Positions 10,301 to 30,126 of a DNA stretch of 64,000 nt are shown here, piece after piece (position 1 is the stretch's first letter; every line of letters starts with the position of its first letter). Both the position numbers and the translations under genes were made by a program. Source of the DNA: Anadara kagoshimensis (lineage: Eukaryota; Mollusca; Bivalvia; Arcoida; Arcidae); assembly GCA_021292105.1 (NCBI GenBank), contig CM037869.1, forward strand, positions 43,679,990 to 43,743,989. The letters are read 5' to 3'. Below the pieces are notes generated by a model, which searched no databases, had not been told where the DNA came from, and saw nothing but the letters and a program-made list of their open reading frames with translations.

Positions 10301-11791
10301 AAAATGTGATTAATGTTACAAGTGTCTCACAAATTGCTTAAAGACGACAGCTGACCGTCATGATTTTCACTTCAGTATACTTTGGTTGAACAGTATAATA
10401 AACATCAACAACCGGTGTAATAAAATAAATATTACATTTTCTCATAGGGTGACAGTCCATATATTGTCACTCCTCAAAATTCATTGTCATGAACATGGTA
10501 AAAATTTTATTTATAGCTTGTGACATCTCAAAACCCCATTCAATAAATCAATTTTGTACTTTATTTCAGAGTCATCTTTTACCCCTGACAATAGATAACA
10601 TGAACACAATGAAGTTAACTCCTCGGAAAGATTATACAGCAAATAGATTAAAAACAGGCTTACTTCAGCTGAGTGGTGACACATCACTGGTGGTAGACGA
10701 AACAGTGTTGGAGCCAGGACAACTAGATGCTAATGGTATTTACAGGGTTCCCAGAGTCTTGAAAAGTGCTTGAAAAATGAGCCCTGACTGGAAAAGTCCT
10801 TGAAAATGAGTAACAACAAGCAGGTCCTTAAAAGTCTGGAATTGTGTCAGTCTGTCTTGAAAAGGCCTGGAATTTTGAACTAATCAACCTGAGTTCAGAA
10901 CTGTGTAATATCGTTCTTTGTTGGAGAAATAAAAAGTAAATGAATTTTTGAACACAGGAACACTTAAAATGCAAAAGTACTTTTTAAAAGTACCATATTT
11001 ATCAGTCAGGGTCTCGGTGGCCGAGTGGTCCAAGTGTGCACATAAGGATCTAGGGACCTCTAACCACTTAGGTGTGAATTCCACTGGGGTGGATCAAAAT
11101 GGGAGGTTAGTCAGTAATCTCGGAAAGCTTGCTGAAGATCAGGACCCGGTTGTTCGAAGCTTGATTAGTTTAATCACTGATTAACACAAATTCAAAAAGT
11201 CAATAAAAAACAAAATAACATGATCAAATTGATAGTTTTATAATTAAATGGTTTAGTATGATTGAATTCTATTCACTTTCAACATTTTCAACGTAAATTT
11301 CACATCAAATCTGAAATAATGCAAAATTCCAATTTTGACTAATCAATTGATTAAACTAATCAAGCTTCGAAGAACTGGCCCCAGTTGTTGCTTTCAAGTA
11401 CTCTAGTTTTCTCTACAAACCATGAACTGATCACCTCTTTGTAAGTGAATTAATCTGGACTAGGGAGAAAGCTATCATCCATGAACTGACCACCTCTATT
11501 TAAGCGAAATAATCTGGACTAGGGCATTAGACTTCATTACCCACTCCACTGACTCATCAAAAAATCTTGTTCACATTTTGTAAAGCTTAAATTTCAAATT
11601 TTACAGGTGTCAGGAATATCACTTCACTGGGTAACTTAATTAGTTGGCAGAAAGTGGAATATGATTTTAGTTTCCATAATTTAGTTATCCACTCTAATGT
11701 GTCGGTACTTATCTTATCAGAAGCTAAATCCATTTTACCTGTAAGTATAGTGTGAATGTGTGTGTGGACATTCTGAATACTAGTGCTTGTA

Positions 11792-12272: not shown

Positions 12273-15200
12273 ATTCTTCCCCACTATTCCAGAACTGATT
12301 GCCTCGATATTGATTTAATCTTGACTTGGATGTAAAACACCATTGCTCAACTTTATTCCACATTTCAGAAATGATGGCTTAGAATATTAAGATATAAGTG
12401 AATGATTTGTGCCTAAGGAGAATACAGCATTACTTCCTCTCTTTGCATTCACAATTGACGTATTGCCGACCACGTCCACGATGTTACGACACTGGCCGTC
12501 ATAGCAGTACCAAAGCAGCGTCAAGGCAACTAATGACGTTCTTGTGTCAGTGACGTCATTAAACGGCACAATTCAGACTGAGTTTTCATTCCTTTTGCAT
12601 CCAATTCAACATGCCGGGCCTTTGTCGGAACATTGTGGGCGTGGCAGGCGATCCGTCAATTTAATATGAATGTGAAACATAATCACTGGGAAAATAATTT
12701 GAAATTTCTTGTATTCAAGTTAAAATTGTGTGTACGTGTATACTTCTCGTTTGTTATTTACACATGTAGTTTGTTTTGTTTTTAGAGTGACTGTTTGGTC
12801 CCCTTGGTTCCTATGACAGTACCGGACAGTTTTACAGAACACTTTATGATGTTAGATTCTACCCTGACACCAGAATTGTTAAATAAGATCAGAGTGTATA
12901 TAAGTCTAGCCAAACTTCTAGATTACACAATGTCAGAAGAGATGCAGAAGGTTTGTTGTACTTTGTATTATTAGACCTCATTAAAACAATACGATACTAT
13001 CTGTAATTTGATTGGATTGTTGGATCGTGTAATCGGGTGGAGAAAACACTGTGTATCCTTCTGATATCATATCCCACCTCTTCAGAACACACCATGATGT
13101 CACAATATGATGTCATCAATGGCGGTCACGACGTTCTAGCATTTGCCTCCTATGAGTTCCGATAGGAGAAAAAGCAATGAAGGACTGATGTTTTAACCTT
13201 CCAGGCTGTATTTTTAAAATATCTTTTCTTTCTTTCTGTCTTTCTTATTACCATGGTTATTTTTCGGTATAATAAACAATTTATTGCCTTTGTATGAGGG
13301 AAATATGAACATTTGTTCACCTGCAACAAGTCACTTTTCTCTCGGGCTTCGCTCTCGGGGAAATATGACTTGTTGCGAGTGAACAAATGTTCATATCTCC
13401 CTCACTAAAAGGCAATAAATGTATAATATATCAATCTAATATTGAACAAGTGATAGGGAACTTGATGACAAATTCGTGCAAAGTGCATGCTTACAAATTA
13501 CAGCATGCCTCTCTGGATAGGTTGGAATCCCCTTTGGGTCAATTTAGCATTACAAAGTATGTTGGTTTATGGACCATGGCAGGTTCAAACCCCACTTGAG
13601 CAGATACTCGAAACATAAAGTGAGAAAGGATTTGAAATTATTTCAGGCATTATCAATCCTGCAAATGACCCATAGATCAAATTACCAACTTGGTACTTTT
13701 TCCATTTGGTACTATTTTATGCTGTCTTCTTAATTTCTCCCCAAGATAACTTCCTTCTTTTTAATTCTAGACCACTGCAGTAGCTCGGTTGGTAGAGTGC
13801 TCGCTCTGTAAGTGGAAGGTCGTGGGTTCAATCATTGGTGGGGTCTGACCCAAGACTTGATAGTGGGTAGTGACTGTTCTTTTGCCAAGCAATCAACATT
13901 ACGAATTGAAAATCATGGTTCTCTCGGATAGGAACTTAAAATAAACAAGGTCCGTGTCACGGTGGGCTTGGTATGATAAAGAACCCTGTTGTATAATGCC
14001 ATCAGCGCAACACATGGGCAAAATTTCTGCACTTTCGCCTATAGCTCTTGATGTCTTGATATAAATGAAATATTCTTGATGGGACGTTAAACACCATTAC
14101 TCAACTTAACTCCATTCTTAAAGCTTGCCATATCATATTGTTTGGCAGTTTTCCGAGGGTTATGCCAATCCAGTAAATGATTGTGTTTAAACATTAACAT
14201 GACTACATGTATAAATAGTTTTCTGTGTTTTGTAGGGTATACAAGAAGATTTTGTAGATGCTCGTAAAGATGATCCCAAAAATATGACCATACAGGACTT
14301 CCAAATGCTTCTTAATCTTGTCAGGTAAAGTTATAAATGATATGTACAATAACAATTAAGACATTTTGTTCATGGTATTTCAAGGGGTAATGCAAGATAG
14401 TGTGGCGTGTGCCAAATTCCAAGTGCCTTTGCACTTCATTTTGAATTTGGCACACGCCACACTATCTTGCATTACCCCTTTAAATACCATTAACAGAAAT
14501 GTCATTTCTTTCCTTTAATAAATATTTTGTACCTTGGTGCTAGGGTTTTTAGCCATGTTAAATCGGCATGTCTCATGTGACCACGTGACCCCCTGTGTGG
14601 GACATGACGTAATATTGCAGGGAAAATTGATACACATCAAGGGTCATGATCCCAATTGTCTTTCATGGAAATTGCAATCAATTGCTTCTGCATGTTTCAT
14701 CGAAGAGAGATACATATTATAAATATATTGGTTTAAAAAGGTGTTGTGATCCCTATGAGTAGTTAAACCCATATAAGTTTAGAATGTGATATCTAAACTG
14801 ACTCTACTTGAATAAAACCTGTAGATGATGGCATCCTGATATAAGTGAAAAATTCTTGACTGGGATGTAAAACCCCATTCTGTATAAATTACAACTTGTT
14901 TAATTTGGGCCTTAGTGGCCATGTGGTGGTTGGTTGCTTACTAATCATAGTGTCTCTCATAACTTGGGTTCAGATCCTACTCTTGAAATATTCTAGTGCC
15001 AGGAATTTTACATATCGCTTGCCATTGGTTGTTCTGTTGTTTTTTTTGCACACTATTCCTAAATTTACTACATAGATATCATATAATGTAATTGACGTAT
15101 CGCCAGCCATGCCTTTTATGTTCCAACACTGGTCGCCATCACAGTATCAAAGTAGCGTCATGGCAACTAATGATGTATAAGTGTCAGTGACGTCATTAAG

Positions 15201-16207
15201 TGACACAATTCAGGCCAAGTTTTCATTCTTTTTGTGTGTTATTCAAGCATGCCGGGCCTTTGTCGGAACATTGTAGGCATGGCCAGCGATCCGTCAATTT
15301 AAAATCTTGTCTGGGTATAAATACCATTATTATACCTCACATATATTAAAACACTTTTCATTGGATATTTTCCAATCACATGACATGTAATAAATGAGAT
15401 GTTTCCCACAGAATCGCTGTCAGCGTGTGGCAACCTCTCACAGCCATGAGATAACCTTTTGCCAGCCATGTGATAATACTATTATCAACCGGTGATAACC
15501 CGGTACAAGGGAAATAACTCGTACAACAGAACTGTGTTGTCATTTGGTAAACAATAACAATGGCGGCCAGTCGTTTTTTGCAGTTCGTCGGAAGCGGACT
15601 TGGAATTAATTATGTATGATAAAGATGCAAAAATATATTAAGGGTCACCTAAGCTTCAGTGAAAATACTGGAAATGTATTTGATGGAAACAGAAAGAGAG
15701 GTAAACCTAGATCTTACTCCCAAAAGACCCACGCACAGCTACTGTGGAATCTTCGTATACAGGCGAGCGTAAATGGATGGTTGAAAGTGTAAACTGGTAG
15801 CGTTTAATTTAATTTAAAATTTAAATATTGTTTGTGTCATTTTACATGGTAAGCTTTGTTTCGGTATAATAAATAATAATTGCCCTCTAGGTATGTGGAC
15901 ATCCAGAATTGTCACCCTTCAGAAGGGTTTTCACCCTCGGGCGATGCCCTCGGGTGACAACCCTTCTGTCGGGTGACAATTCTGGATGTCCACATACCTA
16001 GAGGGCAATTATTGTATATTACTTTGTGTTTAAAGTTTGAAATAACACGTAAATTGTGTATTTCTTATGCATTTCAGACTGTTGTCACTAACACATTTAC
16101 AGACTTCACCTACTGAGATGTTTTGGAGAAGAGCCAAATCTATGGAAGGACAAAGAAAACAAAGAATTCTACAGCAACAACAACAACAGAATACTTCTAG
16201 ATCTTAA
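1337..16207 (+). CDS. MCMBP: MCM complex-binding protein, 14 coding exons (N-terminus missing)
   Basis: MCMBP binds MCM2-7 in place of MCM2 and supports assembly or unloading of the replicative helicase in the nucleus. Coding exons: 1337-1416, 2134-2316, 2942-3043, 3899-4082, 4568-4641, 5626-5723, 7061-7236, 8004-8127, 9697-9814, 10570-10735, 11607-11740, 12786-12950, 14236-14324, 16078-16207. All phases join without a frameshift, giving 606 residues before TAA; the human protein is about 642. Conserved blocks visible in order are a [17 protein letters not shown] segment in exon 2, [11 protein letters not shown] in exon 3, DLNFPLP in exon 5, [13 protein letters not shown] in exon 7, [10 protein letters not shown] in exon 8, PLGKFSVNL in exon 9, KDYTANRL and [11 protein letters not shown] in exon 10, and a Gln-rich C-terminus. 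All introns look GT-AG except the third, which is AT-AC. The exon boundaries were placed by eye from splice consensus and conservation. Confidence 0.96.
1750..2006. mobile_element. MITE, CAGGGGTT termini, 6-bp TSD
   Basis: A 257-bp element with 15-bp inverted ends (CAGGGGTTCAAAATT against a right end that reverse-complements to CAGGGGTTAAAAATT). It is flanked by the exact direct repeat TTAGTA at 1744-1749 and 2007-2012. Subterminal AGGTCCAGGACCT and AGGTCCTGGACCT blocks are themselves palindromic. Related copies lie near 40292, 42990 and 57685. It sits in the first MCMBP intron of the window. Confidence 0.85.
3044..3898 (+). other. U12-type AT-AC intron of MCMBP
   Basis: The intron begins ATATCCTTT at 3044, a perfect match to the minor-spliceosome 5' splice site. 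It ends AC at 3898, with a branch-site-like TTTTCCTTAG at 3877-3886, 12-13 bases from the end. Using these borders keeps the frame and the conserved TWVKE. The spacing to the conserved PSTS block is then 11 residues, as in the vertebrate protein from memory. The GT-AG alternative (GTGAAAG donor with the AG at 3885-3886) would delete the conserved VKE. The intron also contains a SINE with about three ~104-bp tandem copies. Confidence 0.85.
3324..3860 (+). mobile_element. tRNA(Leu/Ser)-like SINE with internal tandem repeats
   Basis: The head resembles a class II tRNA (GCTACCTGAGTGGTCTAAAG, then a B-box-like GGTTCACATCCC). The body continues into the shared segment about 'ccaccatccatgaactgagcacc'-type sequence. 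That body segment is repeated about three times with a ~104-bp period (3470-3790). It lies wholly inside the U12 intron. Relatives occur at 10998, 14905, 27795 and 47385. Confidence 0.65.
4468..4550. repeat. Fragment of the ACAGTAAAACCTG MITE family
   Basis: This matches the right half of the fuller copies at 5165 and 43258 ('ctactggcctttttaag', then a GTGACCTTTAAGGCAG-like end). It ends just upstream of MCMBP exon 5. Confidence 0.6.
4743..5050. mobile_element. MITE, CAGGGATTTATC termini, 5-bp TSD
   Basis: A 308-bp element with inverted ends CAGGGATTTATC and GATAAATCCCTG. It is flanked by direct repeats GTAAT at 4738-4742 and 5051-5055. A second copy in the opposite orientation lies at 8800-9138, also with a 5-bp duplication. 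Intron 5 of the visible MCMBP gene. Confidence 0.88.
5165..5349. mobile_element. Tc1/mariner-like MITE (ACAGTAAAACCTGTCTATAA family)
   Basis: The ends read TACAATAAAACCTG and a degenerate inverse ending ACTGTA. The internal text about 'ctttataagcaggtg' matches copies at 30553, 43258 and 61994. A TA target is plausible, but I did not assign a clear duplication. Confidence 0.7.
5842..6244. mobile_element. Element with CAGGGTT termini and 6-bp TSD
   Basis: A 403-bp element starting CAGGGTTCGCACAG; its right end reverse-complements to CAGGGTTAGTACAG. It is flanked by TGTACA on both sides (5836-5841 and 6245-6250). The interior carries 'ggaaaagtc' motifs. A partial relative starts at 10743, just inside MCMBP intron 10. 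No coding capacity is seen. Confidence 0.8.
6688..6895. mobile_element. CRE-bearing MITE, copy 1 (ATTGACGGATCGCCAGCCA ends)
   Basis: A roughly 208-bp element with inverted ends ATTGACGGATCGCCAGCC and GGCCGGCGATATGTAAAT (degenerate). The interior holds GCCCGGCATGCTT, TGACGTCA and GATGGCGGCCAGTG. Three other copies are at 12454, 15091 and 17461. Located in MCMBP intron 6. Confidence 0.8.
7368..7680. repeat. Putative small element with TAGGCCTAAAA-like ends
   Basis: The left end AAGGCCTAAAAAAATTG and the right end TTTTTAGGCCTAAAACAG look like imperfect inverted repeats around about 300 bp. No second copy is visible in the window, so this is weak. Intron 7 of MCMBP. Confidence 0.35.
8475..8765 (+). 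mobile_element. SINE, 5'-damaged copy of the main tRNA-headed family
   Basis: It retains the B-box-like GTGGGTTTGAACCC and the characteristic body (GGTTCTTTCGGATGGGAAC, GTATAATGCCATCAGCGCAA). The 3' end reads 'ctgggaccttaaacaccattactcaac'-like. The A box is missing. Intron 8 of MCMBP. Confidence 0.85.
8800..9138. mobile_element. MITE, CAGGGATTTATC termini, 5-bp TSD, second copy
   Basis: A 339-bp element with termini CAGGGATTTATC and GATAAATCCCTG. It is flanked by CAAGC at 8795-8799 and 9139-9143. The orientation is opposite to the copy at 4743. It abuts the preceding SINE by about 35 bp. Confidence 0.88.
10020..10480. repeat. Probable member of a hairpin-ended element family in MCMBP introns
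   Basis: It shares a layout with 12960-13440 and 15340-16020: an ATTGGTTAA/CCAAT-like start, and GGGTGACA blocks near the end. The similarity is patchy, and I could not fix borders or duplications. Confidence 0.4.
10998..11560 (+). mobile_element. tRNA(Leu/Ser)-like SINE with tail
   Basis: The head GTCTCGGTGGCCGAGTGGTC is strongly tRNA-Leu/Ser-like, followed by AGGTGTGAATTCCACTGG. The body contains an inverted pair around 'agcttgattagtttaatca' and 'gattaaactaatcaagctt' (about 11156 and 11350). That pair may be another element nested within it. The tail resembles that of the 3324 SINE. Confidence 0.6.
11741..11840. repeat. (TG)/(CT) microsatellite next to an MCMBP splice donor
   Basis: The donor GTAAGT at 11741 is followed within about 15 bases by a TG-rich run, and at 11793-11836 by a (CT)n tract. 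It contributes no coding sequence. Confidence 0.85.
11851..12215 (+). mobile_element. Second tRNA-related SINE family
   Basis: It has a tRNA-like promoter: GGCCACAGTGGCTTAATGG (A box region) and GTGAGTTCGAGTCCC (B box). It is followed by a body unlike the main SINE family and ends just before a (GT)n run at about 12223-12269. Only one copy is visible in the window. Confidence 0.6.
12454..12660. mobile_element. CRE-bearing MITE, copy 2
   Basis: The ends are ATTGACGTATTGCC and GGCGATCCGTCAAT. The interior carries GTGACGTCATTAA and GCCGGGCCTTTGTCGGAACA. Its orientation is opposite to copy 1. Located in MCMBP intron 11. Confidence 0.85.
12960..13440. mobile_element. Element with terminal hairpin (TTCGGTATAATAAA end)
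   Basis: The right part (13256-13432) is a long imperfect palindrome. GGTATAATAAACAATTTATTGCC and GAACATTTGTTCAC pair with later GTGAACAAATGTTC and GGCAATAAAT. The spacer contains CTCGGGCTTCGCTCTCGG. The left part holds 'aatggcggtcacg' and TGATGTCATCA. It is similar in plan to 15340-16020. Confidence 0.6.
13772..14112 (+). mobile_element. tRNA-headed SINE, main family
   Basis: A box TAGCTCGGTTGGTAGAGTG and B box GTCGTGGGTTCAATC give a tRNA-like head. Then come the shared body (TATAATGCCATCAGCGCAAC) and the 3' motif 'gggacgttaaacaccattac'. Intron 12 of MCMBP. This family has about ten recognisable copies in the window in both orientations. Confidence 0.92.
14372..14490. repeat. Near-perfect palindrome (hairpin), about 48-nt arms
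   Basis: The left arm starts ATGGTATTTCAAGGGGTAAT and is answered by ATTACCCCTTTAAATACCAT. The core GTGTGGCGTGTGCCAAATTC pairs with GAATTTGGCACACGCCACAC around a loop of about 23 nt. Located in MCMBP intron 13. Confidence 0.92.
14905..15060 (+). repeat. tRNA-like SINE fragment
   Basis: GGGCCTTAGTGGCCATGTGG is followed by TTGGGTTCAGATCC, then a SINE-like tail. It stops before the MITE at 15091. Confidence 0.5.
15091..15298. mobile_element. CRE-bearing MITE, copy 3
   Basis: The best preserved copy: ATTGACGTATCGCCAGCCATGCC-type left end (23 nt) and the matching right end GGCATGGCCAGCGATCCGTC. The interior holds GTGACGTCATTAAG. Same orientation as copy 2. Intron 13 of MCMBP. Confidence 0.88.
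15340..16020. mobile_element. Hairpin-ended element, about 0.7 kb
   Basis: It starts near TTCATTGGATATTTTCCAATCAC and carries AATGGCGGCCAGTCG. It ends in a long palindrome at 15868-16012: TTGCCCTCTAGGTATGTGGA pairs with TCCACATACCTAGAGGGCAA, enclosing inner GGGTGACAA/TTGTCACCC repeats. The flank TTCGGTATAATAAATAA matches the 13256 hairpin. No coding region was seen. Confidence 0.65.
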
Positions 16208-16254
16208 AACGTCAAAAATACAGATAATCATGATGACATTTTATATGTGATATG

Positions 16255-16568
16255 TACAGGAAAACCTCGATTCATCACCACCATTTGTTTAGCCACATTT
16301 TGGTGATATAAGGGGTTTGGTGAAAAATTGAGAAAGGCTTAAGAAGAAGTGGAAGAGTTGGATTATAGGTCTTCAAAATTGTACCATTAAACCTTTATTC
16401 ATAGCCCCTAAAGATATGGAAGAAATGGATTTTAAGACTAAAAATTAAGTGGCAAAGTAAATCAAGTGGCATTATAAAAAGGTTCTGGGATTTTAAGGCT
16501 TAAAAATTGTGTGGCAACAAGCTAGGTTGCAATAATATCGAAGGGCATTGTGAAGAGGTTTTACTGTA
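16255..16568. mobile_element. MITE with TACAGTAAAACCT-type ends
   Basis: The left end TACAGGAAAACCTCGATTCA and the right end AAGAGGTTTTACTGTA form inverted repeats. The interior repeats a 'ggattttaaggcttaaaaattgtgtggcaa'-like phrase. A cleaner relative is at 47184-47374. It starts 48 bases after the MCMBP stop codon. Confidence 0.75.
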
Positions 16569-16908
16569 TAATGTATCTTCACTGTCTTCCAATAATCTGT
16601 GCAGTTAAACCTCTAGTTGGGATGTGCAGTTAAACCTTTATTTGGGATGTTTGGAGCAAAGTGATTTAAAATGCCTGCTTACAGATCACCACCTCTTCTT
16701 GCCAAGGTTGACTCGCTCTTGCGTAAATCCAATGCGAGAAGGTTTGTCAGTTGGCTTGCTGATGATTGGTGGTTTTTCTCTAGACACTATGGTTGGATCC
16801 AACATCTAACTGCCCACCACCTCAAGGAAGTGAAAGAATCTTGACTGTTTAATCATTTTCTTATAGATGAACATTGTATAAGAGAAATTAACTTCTTTTG
16901 CAAAATTG

Positions 16909-16914
16909 AATAAA
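16909..16914 (+). terminator. Candidate polyadenylation signal AATAAA for MCMBP
   Basis: This is the first canonical AATAAA seen after the stop codon, about 700 bases downstream. No transcript evidence is available. Confidence 0.5.
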
Positions 16915-16935
16915 ATGTTGGGACTAGTATTGCCT

Positions 16936-18463
16936 AATGGGGTTCGCCACTGTACCACGTGATCAATACCTCTTAACGTTTGTGTGGAACGTTTTGGAAA
17001 ACGTCAATGTCACAAATTCCCGGAATGACATCGTTTTTATGGGAAAAAGTCATCTTATGTGATTCCATATCCATTGAAAATAAGTGTTCCGCACAAATAT
17101 TAGAGGGTATCAGTGGTACAGGGGTGAACCCCATTGATCATAGGCCAAGAAATAGTAGGAAAATTAATAATTGTTTATATTAAACTTATACTATTACAGA
17201 ACAAATTTCTCTGTTTTGATTTATTTTACTGGCACAAATTATCTTCCTTAACAAGGAAAGGTTCTACTGTACAAGGAGAAATTTTTGGCAATGTATTGGT
17301 ATTCACGCTCGAGTCTCGACAGCGAAAAATGAGTGCATCGCTAAATTCACTACATTTTAAAAAATACACATGGGCTTGTCAACTGCGAAAGTAAGTAGAT
17401 GCAAACAAGTTCCTGAATGTTAAAGTATTGCATGTCAAGAATTAATCTTTTGTCTTAGAAATTGACGGATCACTGGTGAAGGCCTGGCATGCTTTAATTA
17501 GATGCAAAAAGAATGAAAACATTGCCTGAATTGTGCCGTATATTGACATCACTGACACTAGTATGTCATTAGTTGCTGTGATGCTGCTTTAGTACTACGA
17601 TGGGGGCCAGTGTCGGAAGATAATATAGTCATGGCCGGTGATACATCAATTGACTAAAAGCAGAGTAATCTCCCATATTATTAAAAGTTAAAACTTTTGT
17701 ATAAATTTTCGTTAGCTGGTACGAATAATAAAAAAATAGATCTATTGTATGTCAAAAAGTTATCTCCCTTTATCTTCGACATGACCAAAGGCAGAGTATT
17801 CTCCCCTTAAATAACAAGTCAAAAAGTTATCTCCCTTTGTCTTAGACATGACCAAGGGCAGAGTATTCTCCCTTTAAATGACAAGTCAAAAAGTTATCTC
17901 CCTTTGTCTTAGACATGACCAAAGGCAGAGTATTCTCCCCTTAAATGACGAGTTAAATCACTTGGTGTTTGCAATATCATGTTTTAATTCTTACTTTTTT
18001 TTTTAAACCTTAACTATTGTTTTGAAGTAAAAACCCTCAAAATGATGGCTGCCAGGCATCGAATCAAATTAAGATCATAATACCCCCTGCAAACCAAAGT
18101 TTGGGCCTACCCCTATAGGAATTAACCCATCTGTCTGGTTGCCTGTCCCAATATCGTGTCGGCTCCATATCTTCCATGTCTATAATTCTATTTTGATCAA
18201 ACTTGGCACAAATGTAAACCAACATGAGACAATGTGTTGCATTCCAAATGTATGTGCATAAGTCAAAGGTCAAGGTAAGGAAGTCCGGGGTGGCTCTCAA
18301 GTGACAGCTGGGATAGTCATCAGTTTGAACATGTTTAAGGATGATTGAAGAAAAGTCCTTTGTTGTGTAGTGATAAAGCATTGCAGTGTTTTAAATTCTG
18401 TACACCACATGTCTTGAAACACAATTGGTTAATGTGGTATGGATAGCAAAAGCAAAGAAATAA
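16936..18463. other. Intergenic stretch with MITE, tandem repeat and dispersed repeat
   Basis: No host exon was recognised. Inside are CRE-bearing MITE copy 4 (17461-17650) and about three 67-bp tandem units (17751-17950, each with CAAAAAGTTATCTCCCTTTG). At 18068-18410 there is also a dispersed repeat whose 'cccaatatcgtgtcggctccatatcttcc' phrase recurs near 62240 and 63805. Confidence 0.6.
17461..17650. mobile_element. CRE-bearing MITE, copy 4
   Basis: It has the ATTGACGGATCACTGG left end and GGCCGGTGATACATCAAT right end. The central motif is mutated to TGACATCA. Same orientation as copy 1. Confidence 0.75.
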
Positions 18464-18464
18464 T

Positions 18465-18785
18465 CACTGCGGTAGTTCAGTTAGTAGAGTGCTCGCTCTG
18501 TAAGTGGGATGTGGGTTCGAACCCTTACCGGATGTGACCCAAGACTTTAAATTGGGTAGTGACTGTTCTTTCGCCAAGCACTCCGTATTATGAAATGAAA
18601 GTCGCGGTTCTTTCGGATGGGAAACTTAAAATAAACGAGGTCCCGTGGCACAATAAAGAACCCTGTTGTATAATGCCATCAGCGCAACGCAAAGGCAATT
18701 TATGCACCTTCACCATGGTTGGCAACGTCTCGATGTGATTAAAATATTCTTGACCAGCACGTTAAACAGCATCACTTCAACTCGA
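18465..18785 (+). mobile_element. tRNA-headed SINE, main family
   Basis: The head is GCGGTAGTTCAGTTAGTAGAG with B box GTGGGTTCGAACCC. The body contains GTTCTTTCGGATGGG and ATAATGCCATCAGCGCAACG. The 3' end is 'gcacgttaaacagcatcac'-like. Confidence 0.9.
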
Positions 18786-18885
18786 ACGCCGAAACCTGAC
18801 GAATTAAGAGGGAAAGTCGATGATTACCCGAGGCGGTAAGAAAGTGCGTCAACAAAATTGGAGATTTAAAGAATTTGGAACTAAG

Positions 18886-19555
18886 ATACGAGGGGAAATC
18901 AGAAAGTTCATAGAACAGCGTATTCTAAAGTTGGTGACCATCAAGCAATGATGGAAAATCAAAATGTTGAGTTTAGGGCAGTAGTAAAGTTCCTCACAGT
19001 CGAGGGATCAAATTACCAAAGAAATTCGCCGGCGAATGACCGAGGTGTACGGGGACAGTGGTCCTGCCTATTCCACAGTGGCAAAATGGTCAGCTGAATT
19101 AAAGCGTAGGCGCGCCTCACTGAAGGATGACCCACGGTCAGGTCGGCCAGCTGATGCCATCACAAAGGAAATTGTCACGTCTGTGGCGACCCTCATCATG
19201 AATGATCGTCGAATTAGGATTAATGACATGGCTAGGGAGTGTGACATTTCACATGGTTATCCACGAGCATCTTGGGATTTAAAAAGTATCCGCAAGATGG
19301 GTCCCCAGAAACCTTAATGTGCAGGATTGCTTCCAAAGACTCCAGTCAAGTCGGGAGCTTCTTGGCATTTATAATGATAACCCGGAGAGCATACATTTAC
19401 GTTTAGTAACTGGTTATGAAACATGGATTTATCATTGGGACCCAGAAACCAAAAAAGAGTCCACGGAAAGCATAAGTTAACACAACTGGTCGGAAAGCGT
19501 AACATTAATGCCACTCCGCTTAAACAAAACATAAAATTTCACTTAAAAGCCGAGT
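18886..19555 (+). pseudogene. Decayed mariner-family transposase
   Basis: The left end is TA followed by CGAGGGGAAATCAGAAAGTTC, a mariner-like terminal repeat. Coding remnants follow. An N-terminal helix-turn-helix part has NVEFRAVVKFL, then YGDSGPAYSTVAKW and RRRASLKDDPRSGRPADA, the typical mariner linker before the catalytic domain. After a large internal loss, YETWIYHWDPETKKES corresponds to the region around the second catalytic Asp. Several frameshifts and a missing middle make it inactive. I saw no matching right terminal repeat. A host gene is excluded by the transposase motifs. Confidence 0.85.
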
Positions 19556-19644
19556 AAAGCTTCTGTTTTCGTGAGTTTATAAAAGTAAAGACATTTCTTC
19601 AGAGTTTTGAGTAGAAACATAATTTAAATCCAAAACCGTTTTAT

Positions 19645-21690
19645 TAGCTCACCTGACCGAAGGTCATGTGAGCTTATGGCATAGCGCAGCGTGTGTATGT
19701 GCGTGCGTGTGTGCGTGCGTCGTTAACACCTATTTTCGACTTCTCCTCTGAAACTACTGGACAGTTTTTAATGAAACTTTGTCAGAAGTATATATGGGCC
19801 GGTGCAATTCAGATTTGTTCGTGGCATTGCTATGGCTACCATAACTAGGTCAAGGTGACCTAGGGGTGCAAAAATCTTAAAAAATCTTCTTCTCCGAAAG
19901 TACTGATTGGAGAAAAAATCTGATGTGATATTTGGCTTCTCTAGGGTCTGATGTGATATTTGGCTTCTCTAGGGTCTTAAGCCTATAGTTTGTTCATTTT
20001 GTGAAATTCGGATAAAAAATAGGTTACGCGTTTTTGCGTTTAATTTTGAAAAAAATCGTAAAATAGCTTCAAATTGTTATAACTTGACTATTTGACCAGA
20101 TAATGACATGGGTTTTTCAGTTTTGACATCTTCTTGTTAGTATCTTTAAAATGAGGTCAAGGTCAATTGTGAAGGTCGTGACCTAAATTTTTTTTCCCTC
20201 TGATTATAATTATTATCTCGAAAACTATAAACTTTTTGTATAGGCATGTATATTAGAATGTTGTAGGTATCAATACAACGATCATTTTGATGTATAGAAA
20301 AAGGTCATGGGTTCAAAGGTCAAGGTCACAGATGTGAAACAATACTGAAATGGTTAATTATCTCGAAATCTATAAACTTTTTGTATAGGCATGTATATTA
20401 GAATGTTGTAGGTATTGATACAACGATCATTTTGATGTATAGAAAAAGTCATGGGTTCAAAGGTCAAGGTCACTGATGCGAAACAATACCGAAATGGTTA
20501 ATTATCTCGAAAACTATAAACTTTTTGTATAGGCATGTATATTAGAATGTTGTAGGTATTGATACAGCATAGAAAAAGGTCATGGGTTCAAAGGTCAAGG
20601 TCACAGATGCGAAACAATACCGAAATGGTTAATTATCTTGAAAACTATAAACTTTTTGTATAGGCATGTATATTAGAATGTTGTAGGTATTGATACAACA
20701 ATCACTTTGATGTATAGAAAAAGGTCATGGGTTCAAAGGTCAAGGTCACAGATGTGAAACAATACCGAAATGGTTAATTATCTTGAAAACTATAAATTTT
20801 TGTATAGGCTTGTATATTAGAATGGTGTAGGTATCGATACAACGATCATTTTGATTATAGAAAAAGGTCATGGGTTCAAAGGTCAAGGTCACAGATGCAA
20901 AACAATACCGAAATGGTTAATTATCTCGAAAACTATAAACGTTTTGTATAGGCATGTATATTAGAATGTTGTAGGTATCGATACAACGATCATTTTGATT
21001 ATAGAAAAAGGTCATGGGTTCAAAGGTCAAGGTCACAGATGCAAAACAATACCGAAATGGTTAATTATCTCGAAAACTATAAACCTTTTCTATAGGCATG
21101 TATATTAGAATGTTGTAGGTATCGATACAACGATCATTTTGATGTATAGAAAAAGGTCATGGGTTCAAAGGTCAAGGTCACAGATACAAAACAATACCGA
21201 AATGGTTAATTATCTCGAAAACTATAAACTTTTTGTATAGACATGTATATTAGAATGTTGTAGGTATTGATACAACGATCATTTTGATGTATATAAAAAA
21301 GGTTATTGGTTTAAAGGTCAAGGTCACATATGCGAAACAATACCGAAATGTTTTATTATCTCGAAAACTATAAATTTTTTGTACAGGCATGTATATTAGA
21401 ATGTTGTAGGTATCGATACAACGATCATTTTGATGTATAGAAAACGGTCATGGGTTCAAAGGTCAAGATCACAGATGCAAAACAATACTTAAATGGTTAA
21501 TTATCTTGAAAACTATTAACTTTTTGTATAGGCATGTATATTAGAATGTTGTAGGTATTGATACAATGGTTATCATAATGTAAAGAAAAAAGTCATTGGG
21601 GTTTAGTATTTATGTTTTCTTTAAATCTATCAGCTAGCCATTAGTTATCAGGTGAGCGTATCAGGCCCATGGGCCTCTTGTTAAAAATCA
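19645..21690 (+). mobile_element. About 2-kb repeat element with internal tandem array
   Basis: It starts TTAGCTCACCTGACCGAAGG and ends CAGGTGAGCGTATCAGGCCC followed by ATGGGCCTCTTGTT. The 3' end has a GGCCCATGGGCC hairpin a few bases before CTTGTT, a Helitron-like arrangement but without the canonical CTRR. The ends also contain complementary AGCTCACCTG and CAGGTGAGC. The interior is mostly the tandem array described separately. No protein was recognised. Confidence 0.6.
20205..21595. repeat. Tandem array, about ten ~145-bp units with nuclear-receptor half sites
   Basis: Units begin near 20213, 20358, 20503, 20633, 20780, 20925, 21067, 21211, 21356 and 21504 (TTATCTCGAAAACTATAAAC). Most carry GGTTCAAAGGTCAAGGTCAC. 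One unit is short by about 15 bases through an internal deletion. Divergence between units is low. Confidence 0.92.
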
Positions 21691-23720
21691 GCTGCTAAAC
21701 AAAAGCAAAAAAATGCCAAAAATGGAAATGTTAAAGGTACGTGCAAAATATGCAAAAATGCAAAAATATAGTTTTTATATGAGGAAGTTAAATAACATCA
21801 AATATAATGTGACTACTTTTTGCTTTCCGTTAACGTTTCGTTTTTATGAAGTTATATTAAAAATAGTCATCTCTCCTCTTTAACGTAATGCGCAACGACC
21901 AAAAATGTATCATTTTACTCGGACGTAGAATACTCTGACGTAAATGAAATGCGGTGTATCAGGATTACCCCCTTGTTTACGATCATTAAGTATAAATTGT
22001 AGCTAATAAATTGTTCACTGTAATGTTTTGTATTCAGCAATGTATCTGGCCCCGTTTCATAATGATTTCTTAGTTTAAAAGCAAAATTAGGAGATCTTTT
22101 TAGAACTACAAATTTACATTTTGAAAACATTAATTGTCTGAAGCTTGAATAGGTCTTCAAACGGACACCTTAAATATTGTAAAATCAACAAAATTGGTCA
22201 GATTTTAACATTACATGATTTATGTTAATAAAAATAAGTCAACTCAATTAATATTTTATTTACGTCTCACCTTTTAAAACATTTAAAATACATATTACAA
22301 TTATACATTAAAATTGTTATAAAGCCACTCTTAACAGAGTTACGAGAGACGATGTGATTAAAATATACATTTATATTACAATTATTTATATAAAATATCT
22401 CTTCTTATTTCTAAAATTTTAACACAGGTTTTGGCACATAAAAATACTTAATCAGGATCAGAGAATAAAACTTTCATTTTTCTTCATTAGATAAAACCAT
22501 TATAACATTCTGATGCTTTTAAAAATAACATTTTTCTAAAATCTTCGTACAATGGACATGATAAAATAGCGTGTTCTTCTTCCTCAATAAAATCATTACA
22601 ATTAAAAACAGGTTCTATCTGTAACATGAAAATTTTCGTATCTTCCGGTTTCTTACCTTAAAGGGGCAACGTCGCATCTAATTTTTGCAAAAGCGTAAAA
22701 TAAGGATCGCATGTGCAGATTGTAGCATGTACTTGGCAACTAGCCAGAGCAACATTTAATGGTGTCATGTTCTACTTTTGAATTTTTATGAAATAATACA
22801 ATTCAAAAGTAGCACATGACAATGGAAATAAGACTCATACTACTAGTACAAAAATCACTCCCTGTAACCAGGCCTCGGTGACCAATCGGTCTAAACGCCC
22901 ACTTCCGAATCAGGCCGTAGAAAAAGGGAAGGCGGGCAGGGTAGACCTCCCCCTTTTTTTTGCTAAAATTTCATTCAGTTTCCAAGACATGTAATTCATT
23001 AAAAGTCAGTAGATATCTCTGTAAAACGCAGTATAATTAAATATAAATTATTAATTTTATATTGACGATACGGTTTTCTGGAAAATAATTGTTTTTCGTT
23101 TTCGTCTTGTTGTTTATTTAAAATTATGATCTTTCTTCCTATTCACCACATTGTGCAATATTCTTGACTGGGATTTAAAACCCAACATTCAGGATTCAAA
23201 CTGAAAGGGACTGACTAGATGAACATCTCCAATCAAACGCCAGATGATAACCATTTGATTTAATTCGCTTAAATTGGTAGATCTGTTCAGAATTCCATTT
23301 TATAGATCCTTACTTTCTTTGTACTACATAAAGCTGTTCATGTGTTCCCTACTTTCTGTCTTTTTTCATAATTTTTGCGTATTTTAATTTTGGCCCCTCC
23401 ACTATAAAATTTGATGCTACGGGCCTGCGAATCACTGCCTCTAGGTGCCAAGATCCCGCTTAAGTCAGATCTTGTCAAAGTTCGGCGGTTTTCTCAGGGA
23501 ACTCCGGATTTCCTCCACTATTCCAAAACTGGCCGTAAAATACCGTACCTTTTTCAATTCATTAACAATAAAATTTGTCAATCTTTATTGAAATATTATT
23601 ATTCCATATTTGTAAATTATTTTAAGACAAAATACATAATATTATATGTTACAAATGAATTTGAAAAGAAAAAAGAATATACATATGTCATAAAATAATT
23701 CAAATATTTTACAGAATAAA
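21691..23720. other. AT-rich intergenic sequence, no gene recognised
   Basis: It contains a short palindrome at about 22763-22820 (TTCTACTTTTGAATT pairs with AATTCAAAAGTAGCAC). There is a tRNA(Leu)-like fragment at 22868 (GGCCTCGGTGACCAATCGGTC) and a SINE-tail fragment near 23430-23540. The rest shows nothing I can name. Confidence 0.5.
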
Positions 23721-23950
23721 AACATTATTGACCTGTCCGTTTGACCTTTCATTAGGAATATTCATATAGGATGGCCCATCAAATACATAAGTAGCGTAAG
23801 AATTCGCAGTTTATACATCTACACATTGCCCATGATTAGTGTTCACATCAGGTAGACGAAATATACACGTTTGATTCCTATTACTTAAATTACTCGTCCA
23901 TAATGAATATTTAAATCAAAGGTCAAGCGGACAGGTCAATGTTGTTTACC
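23721..23950. mobile_element. MITE, TTGACCTGTCCGTTTGACC ends, copy 1
   Basis: Long inverted ends: TTGACCTGTCCGTTTGACCT plus TTCATTAGGAATATTCAT, answered by ATGAATATTTAAAT and GGTCAAGCGGACAGGTCAAT. The full end in other copies begins TAGGTAAACAACA. Copies 2 and 3 are at 31445 and 59148. Confidence 0.85.
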
Positions 23951-24069
23951 CTATATGATATATCGGTCTAGCAAGATCAATCGTATTGAATATGAAATGC
24001 ATCAATACTTGTGCAACGTCTTAACGGAGATTTTCTATACAGAAACACATGTTACTTCTATGTGTACAG

Positions 24070-24280
24070 TACAGACCGGTCGAAAAAAAGTTTTAACACC
24101 GAGTTCTCGAAAAGGAGTCGAAGCTTAGGCGCCGAGTGGCCGAGATATGGAGAGCTAGAGGCCGAAAAACTGCAGAGAGGTCGATACCAACTGTCGAGAT
24201 ATAGCTAGCGAGGGCGGAGATGAGATACCCAAAATCTATACTAATTCCTAAGCTTATTGTTAAACGTTGGACCGGGCTAT
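24070..24280. mobile_element. MITE with TACAGACCTGTCGAAAGTT ends, degenerate copy
   Basis: The left end is TACAGACCGGTCGAAAAAAAG followed by TTTTAACACCGAG; the right end is TTGTTAAACGTTGGACCGGG. Better copies are at 33770-33977 and 43801-44329. It ends about 165 bases before the start codon of the gene at 24447. Confidence 0.6.
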
Positions 24281-24446
24281 AGTGTATGTTCACACGTCAT
24301 AATTTGAAATATTGATATTTTTGCCACGTAAAGATGGAGCAAATCGGCGATTAGTAAAAACAAAGTGTCAACTTTTTTAGATATATACAAGAGACATTTT
24401 AAGAAAAACACTGGACTTTTTACAAGGAACATTTTTGGGGTTTAGA

Positions 24447-26869
24447 ATGATCAGGCGCAAAAATCCCAGGTCCGACCACAGCCTTGAACTGGGTAATCAT
24501 GGTGATTATAGCAGTTCGTTACCAGTCCGAAAACTGACTTCTATGAAAGTTGTGAAATATTTAATATTGATACTTATTGGAGTTTTAATTCACACCACGT
24601 ACAGGGCGATATTTTATGTAAGTAGATTTTCGGTGGGCTATCGCACCACGCACAAGGTGATATTTTATGCAAGTAAACTTTCGGTGGTTATTACACCACG
24701 TACAGGGCAATATTTTATGTCTGAAGTAGGTTTTCAGTGGTTATCACACCACGTACTGGTCAGTTTTCGTTTAAGTAGATTTTCAGTGGGTTATCGCACC
24801 ACGTACAGGGCGATATTTCGTGTATGAACGAGATTTTCAGTTGGTTATCACATCACGTACAGGGCATTTTTTCATGTAAGTAGATTTGTATTGGTTATCA
24901 AACCACGTACAGGGCGATATTTTATGTAAGTATATTTTCAGTGGGTTATCACACCACGTAAATGGCGATATTTCATGTAAGTAAATTTTCGGTTGGTTAT
25001 CACACCACGTACAGGGCGATATTTCATATTATTAGATTTTCAGTGGTTGTTACACCGTTCAAGACATTGTTCTCATGTAAGGTTATCACACCACGTACAG
25101 GACATTATTTCATGTAAGTATATTTTCAGTGGGTTATCACACCACGTACATGGCGATATTTCATGTAAGTAAATTTTCGGTTGGTTATCACACCACGTAC
25201 AGGGCGATATTTCATATACGTGAGATTTTCAGGTGGTTATCGTACCATTTACAGGGCGATATCCTACGTAAGTAGATCACACCACGTACAGGGCGATATT
25301 TCGTGTCTGAAGTAGATTTTCATTGGTTATTACACCACTTTTGGGACATTGTTCTCATGTAAGGTTGTCACACCACGTACAGGACGATATCCTGTGTAAG
25401 TAGATCACACCACGTACAGGGCGATACCCTATGTAAGTAGATCACACCACGTACAGGGCGATATTTCGTGTCTGAAGTAGATTTTCATTGGTTATTACAC
25501 CACTTTCAGGACATTGTTCTCATGTAAAGTTATCACACCACGTACAGGACGATATCCTGTGTAAGTAGATCACACCACGTACAGGGCGATATTTCGTGTC
25601 TGAAGTAGATTTTCATTAGTTATTACACCACTTTCAGGACATTGTTCTCATGTAAAGTTATCACACCACGTACAGGACGATATTTCATGTAAGTAGATTT
25701 TCGGTTGGTTACCACACAACGGACAGGGCAATATTATACGTTTGGTATATCAAACCAGAGGTTTTTTGGTTTACAAACGTTCCACCAGGGCGATATTTTA
25801 AATCAAATGATTTAATAAATGTAATTTTCATGTTTTATTTATTGTACAAGTAAACGGGGGAACCCTCCCTGCACATTGCCCTGTCTGAGAGCATTTCAAA
25901 TGTAAAAAATAATGTCGCTTCACTTTATGGCTGGCGCCTCTCGATATATAAGTGAAATATTTTTACTTGGACGTAAAATCCTAATCAATCAATCAATAAA
26001 ACAATCGATCGATCAGATGTTCCTAAAATGTGTTTTTTTACCAAGGGTCTAAACTCTCTTTTCTGTCCGATATGACGTTGAGAAACATATAAGCACCGTC
26101 AAAGAGTAACCGACTTAATTAATTTAAATGTTTTGTATTACAGACTGGCGATGACGCCGTTGCTAAATCAAGAGCAAACATAAACGAGGCTGAAAATTTA
26201 CCAGCAGACCAAATAAACCAAGAACAACTCAAAGCTAATGAGCGAATTGATAAACCTCCGGATTTAAACCCTGCTGACGAAAATGGCGTGAACCGGGGTG
26301 AAAATAATGACGCACGGGTCGAAAACCGTGATGAACATAAAATAGCGGAGGATCAGCAAAATGTGGATAGTATCAATAAAGATGAAATACAACAAAGACC
26401 GGTCGAAGACAACAAACAAAATGTAGAAGATTCTTTAGTGGAAATCGCAAAGAACGAAGAAGTGGAGCAAAAACAGGAACAAGTGGAAATTAAGAATAAT
26501 GACGAACAAAATCAAAAGGAAGAATTTGGAAAGAAAATAATTGAAGAAAATAAACATGAAAACATTGGGAAAAATGAAGAGCCAGTTCAAAACATTATTT
26601 ATGAAAATTCCGATAACAATCAGATACTCTCACGCAGAATTGATGACCGCATACCCCAGGAATTCCAAGAATTAATGGAAAAAGTGGAAAAGTTAAAATC
26701 TGCTAATATTGACACCACTCATGGAATGCCTACGTTAGTGACATACGGAAAACATGATAACTTCGACCAAGTCAAACAACTGGCGGGTTCTGTCCAGGAC
26801 TTCTTACCTAATACCATGCTATATGTGTATGATTTGAACATGGAAGAATGGCAAAGGAATACGGTAAAA

Positions 26870-26924
<55 letters not shown>

Positions 26925-27291
26925 ACTAGAAAAACTGTGTGCTTGTACTGTGAGCCACAAGCTCACAAAAAAAAATACCCCCCGCTTCCCCTCACATAAA
27001 ATTTTTAAATAGGAGATGCACATCTACATTATATCACAAGGATTGTGTTAAAGTTTCATGAAAATCCATTAAAGGGTTTAGGAGGAGTTGCGGATAAGAG
27101 ATAGGTACCCTAACGTGTAATGGAAGGACGGACGGACACCCCTATCACTATATACCCCCACTTTTAAGCGGGGGGGGGGGGGAGTATAATAGATAAATAA
27201 ATAATTATGAGAGAGAGAGGGAGAGAGAGAGGTCCAAAAATACTAAACACTATACGTGTATGATTTAATAGGGGCAGCCAAATAAATGCGC

Positions 27292-27322
<31 letters not shown>

Positions 27323-28192
27323 CAGAGAAAGAGTGAAGTGTATGAGTGTTGTTTTCAAGAATTAGGTAAGCGAATTATTTGTCATGGCTGCTGATATTAC
27401 AGGGATCTTAAGATAGATATCAACAAGCACATATTAAATAGGCTGTAGCCGTTTCTCTCGTTCCGAAACTTATTATATTTGTTCAACTGTTTCCAAACAT
27501 TTCCTATTTCCAGATGTGGTTCATTGATTGTTTATATATGCAACCGGGTACATGTGTATGTATGTGCGGATGTGGGATACTTCTGCCATATACCATTTTT
27601 TTAATTTAATCATAAAATACATTCAAAAAATGGTATATGACAATAGACAATATACCATTTTTTGAATGTATTTTATGATTAAATTTAAAAAATGGTATAT
27701 GACACTTCTATCATATGTAGTCGATAATGGTGATGCTTTAGGGCTAGGGTGTTCTACTCAATTCTACATGTACACTTGAAACCTTTGTGACCAATGCTTG
27801 TTTAAATTGCCTCTCACCGCACAGGTTCGAATTCCGCTGGGGGAAAATTAGGTGGAAAAGGTTCAATTCGCTTGCAAAAAGTCGATGGTTTTTTTGGGTA
27901 CTAGGGTTTCCTCCACCATTCCAGAACTGACCGCATCGATGTAATTGAAATACTCCTCACTGGGACGTAAAACGTAATAACCCCACCCCTCTCCACTCAA
28001 ATTATAAAGGCATCCTTTGACTTATAATTCAGTTAAATGCCGATTGTTACGTCAAAGTAATGATGTCATTTATTTTTATTTCAGTTAAAAGCCGCTTGTC
28101 ACGTCAGAGTTAAGCAGTCCAATATACGTATATTTCCTGACTTTATCAGCAATCTAAAAAACTTTCATTGGAGACCGTTGCTTATACAGGTA

Positions 28193-28246
<54 letters not shown>

Positions 28247-30126
28247 AATCAAACAAAAGCATATCGCTCCATGTCCGAATCACAATCCTAAAAGTTAACC
28301 ACAAATCTACATGTACATGTTAAAACCACAATTCCAAAATTCAACCATAAGCACTGATTCATATTCAAACAAATCCCAAAAGTCAACCTTAAACATACAA
28401 GGTATGTGTTCAAATCACAATCCCTAAAGCCTGTCTCACACAGAACACGGTTGGGCACACGGTTCCAATACGGTATACTCGGTTATACACGGGTTGATTG
28501 GTACGAATATTGAGCTCCAACCGTGCCTGGGGATGAGTTGGTACGATTTAGACTCGAATGTATAATTCGTACTTGAACCGTATTGGTCGTATAAAACCGT
28601 GTGTACACTCGTGTGAATCGTACGGTGATCGTGTGACATTCGAGTGGGGTGGATAAGGCCACGGTTGGTTCGGTTGTATGTACGGTTTACACGGGTGGCC
28701 AACCGTATATAAGCCGTGTGTTCTGTGTGAGACAGGCTTAACGTCAAACACCAACATACCAGTCCCAGGTAAAATCACAATCCCAAAAGTCTACCACAAA
28801 TCACAACCAGAAAGACAAAGTACATTTGTAAAAGCTTAAGTTAAACACGCGAACTTCCAGGGAAGTTAGGCCCGGTGCGCCGAAAGGCTAAACACCTTCA
28901 GGCCTCGGTTTCTCAATCATTCCGTAGCTAAGATTTTCCTTAACATACATTTAGCAGATTTTGGTCATATCTTTTTGGAACTACTACTGGTGAAAATTTT
29001 TGTCCAAACTAAATGAAAATGTTTTAATCTAGAAATTATCTTAAAATTGACACCTTAATTCCCGAATATCTTGAAAATTAAGAAAATAAAAAAAGATTTG
29101 AAACTTTGCAAGATTTGGGTTAAGGAAGGAAAATCTTGGCTAAGGAATGATTGTGAAACCGGCGCCTGTCTATATATCTATACCTAATTGCACCGCCACG
29201 TTTAAAAGCTAAATTTAGAATGAAATGCACTTGTAACTTATACCCAGTATCAGGGTCGGATCCAGGATTTGTTGAATCAATTTCCAAGAACCACAACTTA
29301 GGCACTATGAAAAAAGTTTAAGTTGAATTTCAAAAGGCTAAGGGACAATTTCAACTTATGGGGTGCTCTGTATGGAATTCAATTTAGGTACCATGTATAG
29401 CAAAGGGTCAATGGTCTGGTCAAAACACTTTAGTAAGGGCCTAACTATGAAACTAAATATCTAGAAATATTTACTAGTATTTATTTATTTATTTATTAAT
29501 TAGACAATAGTCTTGTAAAATTACTTTTGTTGTGTGCTATTTATGAATATCAATATAGGCCAATTACTTCGAACTATTTATTTATCTATTTTCAGATTGC
29601 TCTAGGTCATTTCCGACACATCTTGTGGTTAGAGCCAGGTATTCGGATAAAAGCCAGCGATAACATGCGGAAACTAATGCAGAGTAAATCCAAGGTGTTA
29701 GTGATCGGACAAAAAGCGATATACGCCACAAGCGCCGTGACAAATTACAGGATGTACAAATACATCCCAACAGACAAAAAGAAAATGCAACTCTCACTGC
29801 ATGTAGTTCCTAAAGCCTTGCTTATCCACAACGAAGACTGGGTTTTTGAAAACTTCCTCCGTGCTTTAGTAGCATGCGCATTGGAGGAGAAGTGCCAGGC
29901 GCCATTAGGTGCTGAGGATACGTGTGTTTTTGACGTCACCGGAACTAAATACGCCTCGTGCCATAAATATGATGAATCATCTTTAAACATTATTTTAAAA
30001 AATTATTTTGATTTTGACATTTCAAAATTTTATGTTCCAAGTCCTTCCTATTTTGCAAATTTCGATCCGGAAAATGAACAAGGAATGAAAATGTGTAGAA
30101 GTCCGGATGATGTCAAGAATTTATAA
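24447..30126 (+). CDS. Predicted type II membrane protein with GT-A/DUF1647-like domain
   Basis: Four coding exons in phase 0 (24447-24617, 26144-26863, 28085-28189, 29596-30126) give about 508 residues. An in-frame TAG at 24378 supports the ATG. Residues 1-34 form a basic, Ser-rich cytoplasmic tail. Residues 35-49 (VVKYLILILIGVLI) form a signal anchor. Residues 58 to about 230 form a Glu/Lys/Asn/Gln-rich, probably extended stem. The C-terminal domain has TLVTYGKHDNF, LYVYDLNMEEW, LKNFHWRPLLIQ, HILWLEPGIRI and a Cys-rich end (CALEEKC, DTCVF, ASCHKY). The order matches, from memory, animal proteins with a DUF1647-like nucleotide-sugar-transferase-type fold, where an acidic motif follows 'LW'. 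Golgi glycosyltransferase activity is inference. The link from exon 1 to exon 2 rests on phase, membrane topology and position. Confidence 0.72.
24592..25735 (+). repeat. Minisatellite copying an exon end plus its splice donor
   Basis: The unit is roughly 36-60 bp: CACACCACGTACAGGGCGAT, then ATTTTATGTAAGTAGATTTT, then CAGTGGTTAT. The first unit contains the last coding codons of exon 1 and the GTAAGT donor at 24618. More than twenty degenerate units follow. By direct reading, eleven carry an exact GTAAGT, counting the true donor. Higher-order units (about 130 bp with 'catgtaaagttatc') appear at 25300-25690. Confidence 0.93.
25736..26143 (+). other. Rest of intron 1
   Basis: AT-rich sequence with a SINE-tail-like fragment near 25855-26000 ('cactttatggctggcgcctctcgatatataagtgaaat'). 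It ends in the acceptor TTTTGTATTACAG before 26144. Confidence 0.6.
26864..26925 (+). repeat. (AAAT)n microsatellite starting at a splice donor
   Basis: The donor GTAAAA at 26864 runs directly into about fourteen AAAT repeats. It is the donor of intron 2 of the membrane-protein gene. Confidence 0.93.
26926..28084 (+). other. Intron 2 remainder with dispersed repeats
   Basis: It holds a dispersed repeat with a poly-G run (27050-27190), (GA)n tracts at 27210-27230 and 27294-27330, and a strong palindrome at 27586-27703. A tRNA-like SINE fragment lies at about 27740-27995 (CAGGTTCGAATTCC, then a 'ccattccagaactgaccg' tail). No exon was recognised. Confidence 0.6.
27586..27703. repeat. Double palindrome built from one 17-bp motif
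   Basis: CATATACCATTTTTT occurs four times in alternating orientation. The outer and inner copies pair over about 50 nt, with TTTAATCATAAAATACATTC in the stem and a loop of only about 7 nt. It looks like a foldback element or a recent inverted duplication. Confidence 0.88.
28190..28246 (+). repeat. (AC)n microsatellite starting at a splice donor
   Basis: The donor GTAAGC at 28190 is followed at once by about 25 AC repeats. It is the donor of intron 3 of the membrane-protein gene. Confidence 0.95.
28428..28738. mobile_element. PIF/Harbinger-like MITE with TAA target duplication
   Basis: A 311-bp element whose ends AGCCTGTCTCACACAGAACA and TGTTCTGTGTGAGACAGGCT are perfect inverted repeats for 20 nt. 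It is flanked by TAA (28425-28427 and 28739-28741), the 3-bp duplication typical of PIF/Harbinger. It interrupts a degenerate tandem repeat with 'cacaatcccaaaagtcaacc'-type units (28261-28430 and 28742-28810). The interior is rich in ACCGT and ACGGT. Confidence 0.88.
28905..29168. mobile_element. MITE with CGGTTTCACAATCATTCC ends, copy 1
   Basis: The left end is CGGTTTCTCAATCATTCCGT then AGCTAAGATTTTCCTTAA. The right end is TTAAGGAAGGAAAATCTTGG then CTAAGGAATGATTGTGAAAC. The inverted ends are about 40 nt. A second full copy is at 47803-48066, and an array of half copies is at 45650-46400. Confidence 0.88.

Follow-up and report, generated by a model that had tools for sequence, protein, structure and literature searches.

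In the human interferon-induced gene IFI6 (6-16, G1P3), multiple splice donors are reported to come from a minisatellite (Turri, Cuin and Porter 1995). Three mRNA species result from splicing that also uses two of the repeat units farther downstream as donors (PMC4526556). In the CBS gene, the variant 844ins68 is a duplication of 68 bp at the junction of intron 7 and exon 8 (PMC2630376), and a new intron of potato RdRp has been attributed to a tandem duplication across an intron-exon boundary (PMC4974935). Our literature search for a minisatellite combined with a splice site in a bivalve intron found none. The IFI6 minisatellite unit is said to be 12 bp long, and a 31-bp VNTR of CBS, reportedly the subject of work by Lievers et al. 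in 2001, is said to lie at an exon-intron border and to have a splice-donor role.

By its predicted anatomy, a minisatellite at the exon 1/intron 1 boundary of an Anadara kagoshimensis gene is a further member of the IFI6 kind. It lies in a 64,000-nucleotide stretch of DNA, hereafter called the window. As in IFI6, units of the minisatellite supply splice donors, here predicted ones. Unlike IFI6, for which transcripts have been reported, the present case is known from sequence alone; its unit measures 51 bp, compared with the short unit of IFI6, and all of its downstream exact donors sit behind an in-frame stop. CBS 844ins68 and the 31-bp VNTR resemble it in that a duplicated piece of the gene multiplies splice signals, but 844ins68 is a single duplication with one strongly preferred site, whereas 25 units are present here. 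The boundary-crossing tandem duplication of potato RdRp likewise copied splice signals (PMC4974935), yet it was one duplication that made a new intron, whereas the copies here lie inside an existing intron.

Gene model and status of exon 1

The gene is predicted on the plus strand, with four exons encoding 508 codons before the stop and GT-AG borders at all three introns:

24447..24617 (+): exon 1, likely coding; 57 codons in phase 0, with a hydrophobic membrane anchor
26144..26863 (+): coding exon 2, between acceptor TTACAG and donor GTAAAA
28085..28189 (+): coding exon 3
29596..30126 (+): coding exon 4, with the stop

The joined four-exon protein matches Pfam DUF1647 (PF07801) over residues 205-331 with an E value of 1.6e-10 and a score of 41.3 bits, above the curated cut-off of 25.7 bits. 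Exon 2 alone reaches an E value of only 0.039, and the gain upon joining the exons thus supports the exon 2-3 junction. The product is a predicted DUF1647 membrane protein of 508 amino acids. Since the match spans residues 205-331, the exon 1-2 junction falls outside its scope.

The preliminary description had started coding exon 1 of a membrane-protein gene at 24447, an assignment that the anchor, the phase, and the lack of any other candidate make likely. Within 14000-26143, no other frame of 30 or more codons starts with ATG and runs in phase 0 up to a GTRAG, and the hydrophobic segment of exon 1 scores 2.13 on the Kyte-Doolittle scale. Were exon 1 noncoding, the gene would start elsewhere and the array would begin by chance in an unused open frame. 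Candidates of at least 57 codons are indeed found in 38 of 300 first-order Markov sequences of 12.1 kb. Nevertheless, a hydrophobic membrane segment accompanies such a candidate in just 6 of these 300 simulations, the phase of exon 1 matches that of exon 2, and no methionine precedes the DUF1647 match within exon 2, which requires translation to start farther upstream. A genome search with the whole protein returned nine matches at an E value of 0.001 or below, i.e., one for each of the four exons and five elsewhere (L018 to L022). Three of the latter (L019, L020, and L021; 22-23% identity) match DUF1647 and begin with a hydrophobic N-terminal anchor of this type; L018 is a partial frame with 25% identity and no Pfam match at an E value of 0.01. 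A noncoding exon 1 is therefore highly unlikely in our judgment.

Extent and origin of the minisatellite

The array, its donor copies, and the first stop met on reading through exon 1 are placed as follows:

24590..25735 (+): minisatellite of 25 units, the first 28 nt being the end of exon 1
24618..24623 (+): first GTAAGT copy, the predicted donor of exon 1, in phase 0 with the acceptor that ends at 26143
24669..24674 (+): GCAAGT, a degenerate copy that keeps the frame and as a GC donor would add 17 amino acids
24726..24731 (+): GTAGGT, likewise degenerate and in frame, which would add 36 amino acids
24825..24827 (+): TGA, the first in-frame stop when exon 1 is read onward
24876..25694 (+): ten other exact GTAAGT, all behind the in-frame stop

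TRF reports a 51-bp-period array from 24590 with further overlapping periods up to 25698. Cutting at a conserved anchor resolves 25 units of 37-54 bp, i.e., a 51-bp basic unit with 37-, 38-, and 53-bp variants; the last unit (from 25715) is degenerate, and its end was set arbitrarily. Additional TRF periods of 188 (24893-25238), 165 (25250-25591), and 128 (25404-25698) indicate that blocks were locally reduplicated. The array starts nine or ten codons before the end of the likely exon 1, and the repeat thus crosses the predicted exon-intron boundary with the donor inside the unit, an arrangement of the IFI6 type and in agreement with the preliminary description, which had the unit take in the last exon 1 codons together with their GTAAGT. 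That description also had the array extend through the intron; the repeats do fill the first 1.1 kb of the 1.5-kb intron 1, but they stop near 25735, leaving roughly 400 nt up to the acceptor.

Within the assembly (1,115,223,567 bases in 36 contigs), all 15 matches to a 32-mer pattern with up to three mismatches lie in the array, and the reversed-pattern control found 0. A DNA search with a 102-bp piece likewise placed 12 of 12 matches there, and a second DNA search for the unit placed its single match there; these counts are lower bounds, and the DNA search skips very common words, so that rare or diverged copies may exist elsewhere. The counts do not support an origin of the unit from a dispersed satellite or a mobile element. 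A plasmid search gave no match. Since the unit was found at this place alone in the genome, its simplest origin is a duplication that took place here, across the boundary of exon 1 and intron 1, and the array probably grew locally, with the exon presumably coming first and the array later.

Donor copies and their reading frames

Eleven exact GTAAGT hexamers on the plus strand (24618, 24876, 24926, 24977, 25114, 25165, 25268, 25396, 25433, 25561, and 25689) bear out the number given in the preliminary description. The consensus donor is thus kept in several copies, again as in the IFI6 type, with GTAAGT present in 11 of the 25 units and missing from 14, among them all four nearest the exon. The 4,146-bp locus around the array holds these 11 copies against 2.38 expected on both strands, a number reached by none of 200 shuffles, although the copies are not independent but share one tandem-repeat history. 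Across the whole window, 44 copies against 36.2 expected are not unusual (13 of 100 shuffles reach 44). The window contains 23 arrays with a period of at least 20 bp, covering 10.7% of it, and none of the other 22 carries GTRAGT on either strand.

Register-bound duplexes were used to compute U1 energies, as an unconstrained duplex slides to neighboring sites. The first donor, 24618, reaches -7.0 kcal/mol, as do 1.8% of the 3,815 other plus-strand GTs in the window, and the other ten exact copies lie at -7.0 to -7.3 kcal/mol; the gene's remaining donors are at -5.5 (exon 2) and -11.0 (exon 3). U1 pairing alone therefore does not single out 24618, and real competition from the downstream sites is plausible, as is some leaky use of them. 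To this extent, the string of competing donors proposed earlier finds support, its ten further sites equaling the predicted donor in U1 complementarity.

The proposed extension of the coding exon at every copy does not survive translation. When 13 donors were joined to exons 2-4, 24618, 24669, and 24726 gave proteins of 508, 525, and 544 amino acids, whereas all ten downstream exact GTAAGT led to a stop after 126 codons, and none retained full length. The downstream copies cannot extend the exon because the in-frame TGA at 24825 precedes all ten. Both degenerate copies tested would extend the open frame. That the first units are open is itself unremarkable, since 58% of unit tails stay open in the exon 1 frame after shuffling.

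Cassette microexons running from an acceptor-like TTTTCAG to the next exact GTAAGT were also considered and rejected. There are seven TTTTCAG sites, with pyrimidine tracts that are short by eye, and the resulting pieces measure 138, 89, 35, 35, 70, 35, and 35 nt; six of the seven are not a multiple of three and would shift the frame.

Conservation of the donor hexamer

Conservation was compared within this one array, among copies with a common history, by using all 25 units, 19 units without near-duplicates, and 16 full-length units. Mean pairwise identities in the donor block, before it, and after it were 0.673, 0.775, and 0.787 (25 rows); 0.672, 0.766, and 0.792 (19 rows); and 0.653, 0.868, and 0.817 (16 rows), with some uncertainty in the unit alignment where 53-bp units have extra bases at the donor. 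Two of 45 six-column blocks fall below the donor block in identity. Ranked by intact hexamers, the donor takes a middle place in each set, at 21st, 19th, and 27th of 45. Pointing the other way, its GT alone is well kept (0.847, 0.801, and 0.767); the column preceding GT scores 0.847, 0.801, and 1.0, equal to GT in the first two sets and above it in the third. Selection for the donor string left no sign, since the whole hexamer is favored in none of the three row sets; a hexamer that is conserved no better than its surroundings in the unit argues against such selection and weakly suggests that the donor copies evolve neutrally. Selection against near competitors found no significant support either: the nearest exact competitor lies 258 nt from the first donor, and the probability that the four nearest units lack GTAAGT by chance is 0.094, which is not significant.

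Alternative readings of the donor string

As a feature of the gene, the array is most likely ordinary, and its copying of the donor is most likely a neutral accident rather than a tuned splicing switch. We consider it probable that the minisatellite was born at the exon 1/intron 1 boundary, where about 51 bp would have been tandemly duplicated, locally and repeatedly. The array would then have spread into the intron, its copies drifting neutrally, while the block duplications seen as longer TRF periods multiplied some of them. The abundance of arrays in the window speaks for this reading. Normal splicing would join 24617 to 26144, with the ten downstream GTAAGT as by-products. An mRNA made from a downstream donor would carry a stop at codon 127 and presumably undergo nonsense-mediated decay; occasional downstream use would thus mean a small loss of output and not a set of protein isoforms.

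The same stop could be put to use if U1 were spread over the donor string, so that downstream use fed nonsense-mediated decay and array length set the output of the gene. Such a rheostat would fit ten sites that equal the first donor in U1 complementarity and all lie behind one in-frame stop, and it would have a parallel in the ability of IFI6 repeat units to act as alternative donors (PMC4526556). It seems unlikely to us, however, in view of a donor hexamer kept no better than the remaining unit and of four units adjoining the exon that have lost GTAAGT, leaving the nearest exact competitor at the distance given above, albeit one compatible with chance. We would be surprised if repeat number in fact determined the share of transcripts destroyed through such a poison extension; if it did, unequal exchange would make the array a fast-evolving dial of expression. 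Protein isoforms are expected, if at all, from the first copies, where the donors 24669 (GC) and 24726 may add 17 or 36 stalk residues by the anchor. Both are in frame and retain the full-length protein, but they pair more weakly with U1 (-3.0 and -5.3 versus -7.0 kcal/mol), even if exon 2's own donor is hardly stronger than the second of them, and an open unit tail is unremarkable in this frame. Functional isoforms of this kind are accordingly very improbable.

With the neutral reading preferred, the locus still offers a natural experiment on the spliceosome's choice among many near-equal 5' splice sites, as the first copy adjoins a coding exon and ten equals lie behind a stop codon. Should transcripts use the first donor alone, position and exon context would dominate over U1 pairing.

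Other features of the window

Two further donors of the gene run directly into simple repeats: that of exon 2 (26864-26925) into (AAAT)14.8 at 26867 and that of exon 3 (28190-28245) into (CA)25.5 at 28195. A random base falls within the 8 nt ahead of an array start with a probability of 0.0046, calculated post hoc. Of 206 plus-strand GTAAR sites, 20 are located inside other arrays or immediately ahead of them, roughly the rate for any base (0.117), which counts against a donor-repeat link at exons 2 and 3. A 24-mer joining donor and CA repeat occurs five times genome-wide (backward control, 0), and one permuted donor-CA 24-mer occurs 0 times (backward control, 1).

Other repeats in the window include an array with a 145-bp period and 9.7 copies at 20212-21596 and a segment at 27588-27704 (62-bp period, 1.9 copies) that contains ATATACCATTTTTTGAATG and its reverse complement and looks like a short inverted-repeat element. 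On the minus strand, an open frame at 37275-37922 matches Pfam DUF6451 (E value, 2.1e-11), and looks like the end portion of a LINE-type reverse transcriptase. An open frame at 18988-19314 (+) matches HTH_32 too weakly to pass the cut-off (23.6 versus 33.7 bits) and is, by eye, presumably mariner-like. An exon at 10453-10770 (+) matches the MCM-binding protein family (PF09739) with an E value of 6.9e-25.
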